Assembly: GCA_947625675.1 (NCBI GenBank)
Contig: CANQPH010000007.1
Span: 1-64,000, forward strand
Length of the DNA stretch: 64,000 bases
Source of the DNA: an uncultured Acetatifactor sp.
GTDB taxonomy: Bacteria; Bacillota; Clostridia; Lachnospirales; Lachnospiraceae
Reading direction: 5' to 3'
Shown here in pieces: positions 13,658 through 17,589 of the stretch. The translations under genes were made by a program, and so were the position numbers. The notes under the pieces are model-generated. The model saw only the letters and a program-made list of their open reading frames with translations, had not been told where the DNA came from and did no database searches. The number at the start of each line of letters is the position of its first letter. Position 1 is the stretch's first letter.

Positions 13658-15463
13658 ATGGAACTTGTCATGAGAAAGGATGTGCCGGAAGAACTCACCT
13701 GGGATCTGTCCGCCATCTATGCCTCTGAAGAAGAAATGTACCGGGATGCCGAACGGGCGGAAGCCATGAGCAAAGAGCTGGAGGCCAATTACAAAGGAAA
13801 GCTCGATACTCCCCGGCAAATCAACGCCTGTCTGGAAGAATTCCGAAAGCTCTACGAGATCGTCACCCTGGTCTCCGAATACGCCTATCTGGCCGTGGAG
13901 GTGGACTATTACGACGGGCACAACAAGGAGCGCAACGACCGCATCAGCCTCCTGATGTCGGAAATTTTCAGCCGTTTGAGCTTCATCGACAGCGAAATTC
14001 TGGAGCAGGATGCCGCCGTTCTGGAGTCCGCAGCCGCCCAGGCCGGCAAAAATCGGCGTTACCTGGAGAATCTGCTCCGACAGAAGCCCCACAGACTGCA
14101 GCCGGAAACGGAACGGGTGCTGGCCGCCCTCTCCCCCACCTTCGGCGCACCCTACCAGATCTATAACATCGCCAAGCTGGCGGACATGCGCTTCCCTTCC
14201 TTTACTGCGGAAGGTAAGGAATACCCCCTGGGCTATTCCCTTTTCGAAGACGACTACGAATATGACGCCCGCACGGAGGTGCGCCGGGCCGCCTTCCATG
14301 CTTTTTCAGAAAAAATCAGGGAATACGAAAATGTGACGGCCGCCGCCTATCAGGCCCAGGTCCAGCTGGACAAGACCCTGGCCACCCTGCGGGGCTTTTC
14401 CTCCGTTTTCGACAGCCTCCTCTTTGAACAGAAGGTGGACATTTCTCTGTATCACCGCCAGATCGACTTAATCATGGAAAAGCTGGCCCCTCACATGAAG
14501 AAATATGCCCGGCTCCTGCAAAAAGTGCATCACCTGGATCGCATGACCTATGCGGATCTGAAGCTTCCAGTGGATCCGGAATACGATCCCAAGGTGACCA
14601 TAGAAGAATCCAGACGTTACATTGAAGAAGGATTGTCCGTCCTGGGGCCGGAATATCAGGCCATGATCCGGGAAGCTTACCGGGACCGGTGGGTGGATTT
14701 CGCCAAAAATCAGGGCAAGTCCACAGGCGGCTTCTGCGCCAGCCCTTACGGCTCCCACTCCTTCATCCTGCTCAACTGGAATGACCGGATGTCCGATGTG
14801 TTCACTCTGGCCCACGAGTTAGGGCACGCAGGCCATTTCAAGGCCTGCAACGCCGCCCAATCCATTTTCGACACGGACGTGTCCACCTATTTCGTGGAAG
14901 CTCCTTCCACCATGAACGAGCTTCTCATGGCCCATTATCTGCTGAAAACCAACCCGGATCCCCGATTCCGCCGGTGGGTGCTCAGTTCCATGGTGAGCAA
15001 CACCTATTATCACAATTTCGTGACGCATCTGCTGGAGGCGGCCTACCAGAGGGAAGTCTACCGGATCATCGACGAAGGGGGCAGCGTGCAGGCCGAAACC
15101 CTGAACCGCCTCATGAAGGAAACCCTGGAACGCTTCTGGGGCGACGCCGTGGAACTCCTGCCCGGTGCGGAGCTGACCTGGATGCGCCAGCCCCACTATT
15201 ACATGGGCCTGTATTCCTACACCTACAGCGCCGGCCTCACCGTGGCCACCCAAGTCTGCGACCGGATTGAAAAGGAAGGCCAGTCCGCTGCGGAGGACTG
15301 GAAACGGGTGCTGGCCGCCGGAGGCACGGGAACGCCCGTGGAGCTGGCCGCCATGGCCGGGGTGGACATCACCACGGACAAGCCGCTCCTGGACACCATC
15401 GCCAAGATCGGGGAAATGATCGAAGAAATCTGTCAGCTGACGGAGGAATTAGGGGAGGCGTAA
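13658..15463 (+). CDS. pepF: Oligoendopeptidase F (M3 family)
   Basis: HELGHAGHF zinc motif, PSTMNELLMAHYLL; AGGAGG upstream of MELVMRKDVPEELTWDLSAIY. Confidence 0.93.
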   Translation: MELVMRKDVPEELTWDLSAIYASEEEMYRDAERAEAMSKELEANYKGKLDTPRQINACLEEFRKLYEIVTLVSEYAYLAVEVDYYDGHNKERNDRISLLMSEIFSRLSFIDSEILEQDAAVLESAAAQAGKNRRYLENLLRQKPHRLQPETERVLAALSPTFGAPYQIYNIAKLADMRFPSFTAEGKEYPLGYSLFEDDYEYDARTEVRRAAFHAFSEKIREYENVTAAAYQAQVQLDKTLATLRGFSSVFDSLLFEQKVDISLYHRQIDLIMEKLAPHMKKYARLLQKVHHLDRMTYADLKLPVDPEYDPKVTIEESRRYIEEGLSVLGPEYQAMIREAYRDRWVDFAKNQGKSTGGFCASPYGSHSFILLNWNDRMSDVFTLAHELGHAGHFKACNAAQSIFDTDVSTYFVEAPSTMNELLMAHYLLKTNPDPRFRRWVLSSMVSNTYYHNFVTHLLEAAYQREVYRIIDEGGSVQAETLNRLMKETLERFWGDAVELLPGAELTWMRQPHYYMGLYSYTYSAGLTVATQVCDRIEKEGQSAAEDWKRVLAAGGTGTPVELAAMAGVDITTDKPLLDTIAKIGEMIEEICQLTEELGEA

Positions 15464-16183
15464 GGCCTCCCCTGCCGCCTGCAGGACGATGCCGCACTCT
15501 TCCTCGCTGACGGGCTCTTCAAAGTTCCGGAATCTCACCTGATCTATGGGACTGCCGATGAGATAGGCATACCACACCAGGGCCAGCAGGAAACGCCCCG
15601 CCCCCAGGCTGGCATGAAAGGTGTCCCTGTGGATCCGGCCGATTCCTTTCTCCAGGGCGATCCGAAAAGCATCGCCGCTGGGGATGAGACCGTCCGCCCG
15701 GATCTCCTGCGCCGCCCGATCATAACAGTCCTTCACCCGGGCGAACATTTCCTCATAAGTCTCAAAGCCATGCCGTCTGATCCGTTCGCTCCCGGTCTCA
15801 TAAGCCCAGGTCTGATGCAAATACAGCTTCGCTCCCGGACAATACTCCCGAACCGCAGCCGCCAGCACACCCAAATAAGGCTGATAGGTTTCCGCCAAAT
15901 AGGAGAAATGACTGGCCTGCTGAAGCGTGACCGCATCCCATTTTCGGGCTGTGAGGGCCTCCTGTATGGTGGTCAGAAAGCCTTCCGCAAAATGACCGTT
16001 TACCTCCAGGGTATAATCCCTCTTTTCTCCTTTCAGATTTCGAAAATGTCTCTCCAGAGAACAGCCCCCGATCATCAGGTTGACCGTTTCCAGCTCCGTC
16101 CCCTCTCCCCTGGCCAGATCATGCAGATAACGCTGTGCGTCCTGGCTGAAACTGTTGCCGATGGACAATACATGAATCGCCAT
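15449..16183 (-). CDS. DUF4886-like SGNH-fold protein
   Basis: MAIHVLSIGNSFSQDAQRYLHDLA ... LMIGGCSLERH; start set by GGAGG. Confidence 0.75.
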   Translation of the reverse strand: MAIHVLSIGNSFSQDAQRYLHDLARGEGTELETVNLMIGGCSLERHFRNLKGEKRDYTLEVNGHFAEGFLTTIQEALTARKWDAVTLQQASHFSYLAETYQPYLGVLAAAVREYCPGAKLYLHQTWAYETGSERIRRHGFETYEEMFARVKDCYDRAAQEIRADGLIPSGDAFRIALEKGIGRIHRDTFHASLGAGRFLLALVWYAYLIGSPIDQVRFRNFEEPVSEEECGIVLQAAGEALRLP

Positions 16184-16279: not shown

Positions 16280-17044
16280 TTATCTTCCGTATTCCAGCCA
16301 GCATCGAAACAGGCAGAGCCACTGGATATACAGCACCTCGCCGGAAGCCCTGATAGGCGGCAGATGGGCGGCCCTTAATGCCATTGCGATCTGTTTTTTG
16401 GTAAGCGGGGACCGGGGACCGTACAAACCGTCCTTCAGGCCAAGGTACAGGAAAGATGCAAAGGCACGCCGCTGTGCAGGTTGGATATCCGGTTTTTCTT
16501 TGCGCTTTAGTTCCAACAATACGATGTCCACATGGGGTTTGGGATGAAAATCCTCCCGCCGAAAGTGATAAAGGATCCTGCACTCAAAAAACGGCTTCAG
16601 CTGCAGGGAGTGCAGGTTTTCTCTCGGCATGCCGCAAAAACGCATGGCGGCCCCTTTTTCCATTACCAGCCACATGCCCTGCGGCAAGCGATCCTCCTGC
16701 GTCAATTTGTTCAGGATTGCCGTCGTCCTTGAAAACGGAATATTGGCAAATACCTTGTAGGGAAACTTAGGAAGAGCACACTTTAAGAAATCCCCATGAT
16801 ACAGCCGCACATTGGCATCAACCTGCGGTTTTAATTTTTCGTAAAGCTTCTCATCAATTTCATATGTGATCACAGTTTTACAAGAAGCCGACAACGCTTT
16901 CGTAATATGTCCTTTTCCCGCACCTATTTCCAGCACCGTATCCCGGGCGGTGAGCCCGGCCTTTTTGATAAGGGAATGAATGAGTCTACGATTTGTCAGA
17001 AAGTTCTGTGAAATAGAATAAACGTCGCTCTGATTTTTTGCCAT
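16280..17044 (-). CDS. erm: Erm-family 23S rRNA adenine N6-methyltransferase
   Basis: QNFLTNRRLIHSLIKKAGLTARDTVLEIGAGKGHITKAL and NIPF catalytic motif (KsgA proteins have NLPY). Confidence 0.9.
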   Translation of the reverse strand: MAKNQSDVYSISQNFLTNRRLIHSLIKKAGLTARDTVLEIGAGKGHITKALSASCKTVITYEIDEKLYEKLKPQVDANVRLYHGDFLKCALPKFPYKVFANIPFSRTTAILNKLTQEDRLPQGMWLVMEKGAAMRFCGMPRENLHSLQLKPFFECRILYHFRREDFHPKPHVDIVLLELKRKEKPDIQPAQRRAFASFLYLGLKDGLYGPRSPLTKKQIAMALRAAHLPPIRASGEVLYIQWLCLFRCWLEYGR

Positions 17045-17087
17045 AAAAAATACACCTCACTTGTAATTTATACTCGCATTTGGACGC

Positions 17088-17135
17088 AAAAAAGCACAGC
17101 GGTACCCCTAATTACAAATTCGGTACGCTGTGCTT
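17088..17135 (-). terminator. Intrinsic terminator/attenuator in the erm leader
   Basis: Minus strand AAGCACAGCGTACC-loop-GGTACCGCTGTGCTTTTTT, a 12-13 bp stem with one bulge and a U6 tract, about 45 nt before the erm ATG. Confidence 0.85.
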
Positions 17136-17163
17136 ATTTACGAATACGAATACAAACGCCCAT
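17134..17163 (-). CDS. Putative erm leader peptide MGVCIRIRK
   Basis: ATG GGC GTT TGT ATT CGT ATT CGT AAA TAA between the promoter and terminator. GGAGGAG lies 13 nt upstream. Contains the +X+ motif RIR. Confidence 0.75.
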   Translation of the reverse strand: MGVCIRIRK

Positions 17164-17204
17164 GAGATGTAGACAACTCCTCCGCTATCGAAAGTTTATA
17201 CCTA

Positions 17205-17233
17205 CTTATAGCATGATTTACGAGGAATGTCAA
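17205..17233 (-). promoter_or_regulatory. Promoter of the erm leader
   Basis: Minus strand TTGACA, 17 bp spacer, TATAAG. Confidence 0.75.
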
Positions 17234-17253: not shown

Positions 17254-17589
17254 TTATTCCTTCATATAATCGTCTCCTAACTCCAAGGGCGTATAAAGCC
17301 TTGGGAAAAGTTCCGAAGTCCGGTTTTGCATCCGGTATTCGGAAGGTGAACAGTTCCAGATCTGCCGGAATGCCCGGGTGAACGCCTCGTGGCTGGAATA
17401 GCCAAACTTCAGCGCCAAGTCCAGGATGCTGGATTCAGGACATTCCACCAACAGCCTCGCCGCCTTCGTCATTCTCCTGCGTATTATATAATCCCGCACA
17501 GAAATATGATTGACAAAGCGGAAAAGCTTTTCGAGCCATCTCCGCTCCGCTCCTATTCCATGAACCCGATCGATCGTAGCTTCAGTATA
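17254..17589 (-). pseudogene. N-terminally truncated AraC-type regulator remnant
   Basis: WLEKLFRFVNHISVRDYIIRRRMTKAARLLVECPESSILDLALKFGYSSHEAFTRAFRQIWNCSPSEYR; frame closed upstream by TGA at 17590-17592 without a good start codon. Confidence 0.6.

Follow-up and report, generated by a model that had tools for sequence, protein, structure and literature searches.

Results

The erm locus

The window, a 64,000-nucleotide stretch from an uncultured Acetatifactor sp., carries on its minus strand a promoter, a short leader open reading frame (ORF), a hairpin closed by a T-run and an erm gene (Table 1). A sequence-only reading of this DNA had listed these elements, together with the GGAGGAG of the leader and a Shine-Dalgarno sequence (SD) before erm, and each of them lies where it had been placed. 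TTGACA/TATAAT-like promoters occupy the matching position in many erm homologues.

Table 1 Elements of the erm locus and of its predicted attenuator
Feature	Position	Strand	Details	Basis
Promoter	17205..17233	-	-35 TTGACA 17233-17228, 17-nt spacer, -10 TATAAG 17210-17205	sequence
Leader ribosome binding site	17177..17183	-	GGAGGAG	sequence; purine-rich SD likewise placed in homologues
Anti-Shine-Dalgarno	17162..17171	-	TACATCTCAT, between leader SD and leader ATG, reaching into ATG; predicted partner GTGAGGTGTA of erm	minimum free energy (MFE) fold, covariation helix 1, swap test
Leader ORF	17134..17163	-	ATG GGC GTT TGT ATT CGT ATT CGT AAA TAA, MGVCIRIRK; ATG at 17163, TAA 17136-17134	sequence, homologues
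Intrinsic terminator hairpin	17092..17135	-	5' arm 17135-17122, 3' arm 17106-17092; -21.4 kcal/mol; begins in leader stop codon	
Terminator T-run	17088..17093	-	TTTTTT	sequence
Outer stem, 3' arm	17051..17087	-	partner leader codons 2-9 and, at its end, anti-Shine-Dalgarno	folds, swap test
erm Shine-Dalgarno	17053..17058	-	GAGGTG, predicted fully paired	
erm	16280..17044	-	254 aa, ATG at 17044; predicted 23S rRNA (A2058) methyltransferase family	NF000499, PF00398

The assignment of the gene as a predicted erm is sound. Its product reaches 219.8 bits with NCBIfam NF000499 (curated cut-off 212) and contains an RrnaAD domain (PF00398); its best solved relatives are ErmB (1yub) and ErmC' (1qam). 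A KsgA-like relative, 31% identical, is a separate gene elsewhere in the same genome. None of ten genomes of the same genus has the gene, so that this erm is accessory in the genus. The plasmid search returned Erms below 60% identity only (best Erm(42), 37%), which places the gene outside the catalogued plasmids, and the viral contigs searched hold no relative of it.

Just upstream of the promoter lies the C-terminal part of an AraC-type regulator (17254-17580, minus strand), devoid of its N-terminal part. In the relative L002 a different gene precedes the promoter, and the promoter-leader-erm unit therefore behaves like a cassette. On the downstream side erm adjoins a DUF4886 protein (15449-16180, minus strand) with no evident link to resistance.

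A short Arg-X-Arg leader precedes most related erm genes

The leader has nine codons, and its Arg6-Ile7-Arg8 forms a +X+ motif (Arg/Lys-X-Arg/Lys) near the C-terminus, as in the attenuator class of ErmD/K, tlrB and mef. We compared 25 erm genes of 44-80% identity, the window's own included, gathered from a GTDB scan (L002 at 80% and L003 at 54% identity) and from further genomes. Directly upstream of 23 of them we found an ORF of 8-13 codons, with its own ribosome binding site and Arg-Ile/Leu-Arg at or near its end: MCGCIRIRK, MCCFIRIRK, MSIFIRIRK, MPMFIRLR, MYASMRLRK and MSARVFRLR are examples. The conserved leader and terminator by which the sequence-only reading proposed to judge itself are thus largely present, with a strong terminator in about 20 of the 23. 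More distant Erms, below 40% identity (L004, L005, L008, L009, L011, L047 and L054), have no convincing leader upstream.

The bases of the leader vary while the peptide is kept, which argues for selection on the peptide. Among the homologues the first Arg is encoded by CGG, CGC or CGT, the second by CGT, CGC, CGA, CGG or AGG, and X by ATT, ATC, TTA or CTT; almost all of these changes are synonymous. The start codon is likewise kept, with ATG, TTG and GTG exchanged. The earlier match of R-I-R to the +X+ signature is thereby extended to R-I/L-R in 23 homologues.

Between GGAGGAG and the leader ATG lie 13 nt, a distance that had been regarded as a weakness of the leader. It proves to be the rule, at 12-15 nt in 15 of 23 homologues; the spacing is long because the spacer holds the anti-Shine-Dalgarno.

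The two remaining erm genes are altered. In L079 the leader MSGIFRTRQ is parted from erm by an IS3-family element (OrfA/OrfB; L079:1200-2900, minus strand) inserted in the terminator loop, with the leader on one side and the 3' arm of the terminator, the SD and erm on the other; the insertion probably alters or abolishes control. In L010 (minus strand, upstream of 1305) the 3' arm of the attenuator and the SD remain before a broken erm, and the leader is lost.

The terminator is nested in a predicted outer stem that pairs the erm SD

Of ten pairs in the terminator stem, seven show compensatory changes. Three homologues (L048, L055 and L053) have the hairpin without a T-run. An Rfam search of the window gave no match.

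The region 17039-17196 folds at -63.1 kcal/mol, 8 standard deviations below dinucleotide shuffles, none of which (0/200) is as good. In this predicted fold the terminator is nested within a longer outer stem. There 17087-17061 is the partner of leader codons 2-9, and the erm SD, as GTGAGGTGTA, is the partner of TACATCTCAT, which lies before the leader ATG and extends into it. The SD has an unpaired probability of 0.00 in the window, and in 21 of 23 MFE folds it is paired to the ribosome binding site or start of the leader, also in the three homologues devoid of a T-run.

Covariation was assessed on an alignment of 18 sequences, with the terminator and SD helix scored. In these helices 91% of cells are paired and 9 of 18 pairs show two-sided changes; the score of 0.426 compares with 0.08-0.17 for slid structures. 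As the alignment blurs the middle helix, we tested that helix by swapping arms between species. Leader codons pair with their own downstream arm at a mean of -12.8 kcal/mol, versus -9.0 kcal/mol with that of other species, and no permutation of 20000 reached the native mean; for the SD helix, 5 of 20000 did. The leader coding sequence coevolves with the non-coding downstream arm.

Altogether, the alignments, folds and swaps show the predicted leader peptide and terminator, the outer stem and the pairing of the SD to be present, conserved and coevolving. A conserved, coevolving outer stem around a terminator points to a leader that attenuates translation as well as transcription. The sequence-only reading had opted for transcription attenuation to the exclusion of translation attenuation; that part is not supported, since in the window and most homologues alike the erm SD pairs with the start region of the leader, with coevolution, and also where the T-run is absent.

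Some attenuators depart from the common layout. Those of L041 and L042 are enlarged by inserted palindromes to 230 and 162 nt between leader and erm, versus about 75 nt; the palindrome of L042 is located in the loop of the terminator. In L043 and L046 an early hairpin closes the leader stem and a second, separate terminator/SD hairpin adjoins erm, so that there is no single nested stem.

A modelled stalled ribosome reaches the base of the terminator

We took the stall geometry as measured for tlrB (PMC6851288), in which X occupies the P site and the second Arg the A site. A ribosome so placed at Ile7 and Arg8 would overlap the 5' arm of the terminator by about 6 nt in the window, in line with the earlier proposal. 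In most homologues the modelled ribosome edge overlaps the stem by 2-11 nt, and 10-16 nt separate the P-site base from the start of the stem, a start no further out than the expected edge; in L038, L041 and L044 the stem begins just outside the assumed edge. In a static fold, the footprint on the +X+ codons removes the base of the terminator and weakens the hairpin from -21.4 to -8.9 kcal/mol; the residual stem ends away from the T-run.

The same static fold leaves the erm SD paired, because the anti-Shine-Dalgarno lies upstream of the stalled ribosome. The median cost of freeing the SD among homologues is 7.5 kcal/mol without and 7.8 kcal/mol with a stalled ribosome, and 2.2 kcal/mol when a ribosome occupies the start codon of the leader; in the window the stalled ribosome lowers it from 10.0 to 6.8 kcal/mol. 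SD release would thus need kinetic or steric effects outside the model, and we rejected simple masking as proof of it, as the static model shows no such release.

We also considered an explicit antiterminator, formed by GGTGTAC after the leader stop and TACACCT before the leader start. It is possible in L037, L038, L041 and L044, but because the window and L002 have no such pairing we left it out of the mechanism.

Discussion

A proposed mechanism and its rivals

We propose that macrolides induce erm through a dual attenuator at 17042-17233, of the same build as the one before Bacillus subtilis tlrB; judging from sequence comparison, we give this reading a probability of roughly 80%. Very probably, then, the two-layer macrolide switch (termination and SD sequestration), so far proven for tlrB, also guards erm in gut-type Clostridia.

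We infer the following course of drug-dependent stalling, termination, readthrough and SD release. In the absence of drug, the ribosome would complete the nine-codon leader and depart, and transcription would end at the terminator hairpin that starts in the stop codon of the leader. RNA that escapes would fold into the long outer stem, with the leader codons and the spacer of the ribosome binding site paired to the pre-erm region and the erm SD, which would silence both erm and further translation of the leader. With a macrolide in its tunnel, the ribosome would stall at Arg6-Ile7-Arg8, its P site at Ile and its A site at Arg8. It would occupy the leader codons that belong to the outer stem as well as the foot of the terminator; RNA polymerase would read through and erm be translated. 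The outer stem may zip co-transcriptionally from the inside outwards, closing the leader ribosome binding site only once the SD has been made; a ribosome already on the leader codons would then deny the zipper its nucleus. Methylation of A2058 would relieve the stall, making induction self-limiting.

An attenuator acting on transcription alone, as the sequence-only reading had it, with the outer stem a by-product and erm translation unregulated, would fit the strong terminators of about 20 of 23 homologues, the overlap of the stem base with the ribosome footprint in most of them, and a static model without SD release by the stalled ribosome. It would also have a parallel in ermK, controlled by transcription attenuation as cited in PMC4335068. 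We consider it unlikely, however, since leader codons and downstream arm coevolve beyond the terminator (0/20000 swaps) and SD pairing persists in the three homologues that lost the T-run. These same three, along with SD pairing in 21 of 23, could speak for the converse, a classic ErmC-like translational attenuation in which the T-run hairpin terminates little or not at all. With 7 of 10 pairs of the terminator arms showing compensatory changes, and T-runs kept in most members, this is very unlikely; an ermC-type leader, moreover, comes without a transcription terminator, and here one with six Ts is present.

The leader might instead sense something other than a macrolide, be it another tunnel-binding drug or a shortage of Arg-tRNA, with erm only one of its outputs. 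Two to three Arg codons within a nine-codon ORF are compatible with this, and +X+ stalling depends on drug and context: not every such sequence stalls with every macrolide (PMC8298421; PMC6851288). Yet nearly all matches of a leader model precede an Erm, and it is the +X+ spacing that is retained, not Arg runs, which renders this reading quite improbable. That Arg-Ile-Arg is conserved on account of the RNA stem only, in an untranslated ORF, is hardly credible. Its codons do lie within the conserved stem, and 22 of 23 individual folds have the wobble base of the first Arg paired, via GC, CG, UA and GU; but the first and second bases (CG) of the Arg codons are almost invariant while the third is free to vary, with compensation, the replacements AGG, TTA and CTT keep an allowed residue, and SD and start codon are maintained through the ATG/TTG/GTG exchanges.

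Relation to known attenuators

The dual attenuator proposed here is closest in design to that of tlrB (yxjB), whose 9-aa leader MIIQFIRYR, intrinsic terminator, SD-sequestering hairpin and tylosin-dependent stalling have been described, with both layers of repression demonstrated (PMC6851288). The two have in common a 9-aa leader with Arg-X-Arg at its end, a terminator stem that a stalled ribosome overlaps at its base (by a modelled 6 nt in the window), a readthrough hairpin, predicted in the window, that hides the SD of the gene together with the leader start, and a 23S rRNA methylase as target. However, tlrB encodes RlmAII (G748) and the window an Erm (A2058) with no rlmAII/tlrB gene downstream; the element would therefore work like the tlrB attenuator without being a tlrB locus. 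In addition, tlrB responds to tylosin and not to erythromycin (PMC6851288). NusG pausing has been shown for tlrB, whereas a pause motif of that type is missing between leader and terminator of the window, where TTNTTT occurs only as the terminator T-run; in some homologues it lies earlier.

The ermK and ermD leaders of Bacillus licheniformis (MTHAMRLRFPTLNQ; MTHSMRLR) also join a +X+ peptide to an erm gene, with MTHAMRLR as the minimal leader of ermK (PMC4335068). The 5' region of ermK, at 354 nt, is over twice the roughly 150-160 nt found here, and no SD sequestration nested with its terminator was found described in the literature searched. Stalling by macrolides and transcription attenuation at a short +X+ leader are likewise features of mef(E)/msrD, where MTASMRLR is required for induction by erythromycin (PMC4335068); MYASMRLRK of L058 is near-identical to it. 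There the genes differ (efflux and ABC-F), the leader region is longer (327 nt), and the literature searched yielded no description of an SD-sequestering outer stem of the window's type.

Transcription and translation attenuation are combined with an upstream ORF (uORF) in the vmlR leader of B. subtilis as well, but with an explicit antiterminator and anti-antiterminator, another drug class and another gene family (PMC9226507). Leaders of ermC and ermB also precede erm and sequester the SD or start region; they differ in their stall motifs, and the published ermB model is without a terminator (PMC11264731). A 2024 survey of erm upstream regions found scattered uORFs and palindromes that are not universally conserved (PMC11264731). 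No description of the leader of the window's erm clade was found in the open-licence literature.

The leader module on other genes

With a covariance model of the leader (R1, 145 positions) we searched 23 genomes that carry erm, and 392 genomes of the class. Such a model finds attenuator loci of this kind. The proposed switch also predicts which erm genes would be inducible, and hence hidden in drug-free tests, as opposed to those that have lost control, for example through an IS3 insertion in the attenuator. The leaders themselves offer about 20 natural R-I/L-R variants for testing which context makes +X+ stall.

Besides erm leaders, R1 matched MSIAFIRLR (L081/L082) before an RlmA/TlrB-type zinc-ribbon 23S rRNA guanine methyltransferase (L081:1382-2476, plus strand). 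This locus has a large part of GAATGAGGTGTATTTTTATGTCCAAAAA in common with the erm loci, together with an erm-like SD and first codons, and folds alike; L083, a 71%-identical relative, carries no recognisable leader. Two other RlmA genes have the leader MVTFMRLR. The one good case, L081, suggests that the leader module has been exchanged between erm and tlrB-type genes. We put forward only tentatively, and with more doubt than belief, the broader view that a whole erm clade, spread across many families of Clostridia, relies on a single portable dual-attenuator module, exchanged between unrelated 23S rRNA methylases (erm, A2058; tlrB/rlmA, G748). If true, drug sensing would evolve as a separable cassette.

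R1 also matched MGIIIRIRK in L080, before a frameshifted erm (L080:170-1550, minus strand) whose middle part shares one continuous reading frame with an APH(9)-like phosphotransferase (kinase) that follows it. The locus has the look of a resistance gene that has decayed or been fused.
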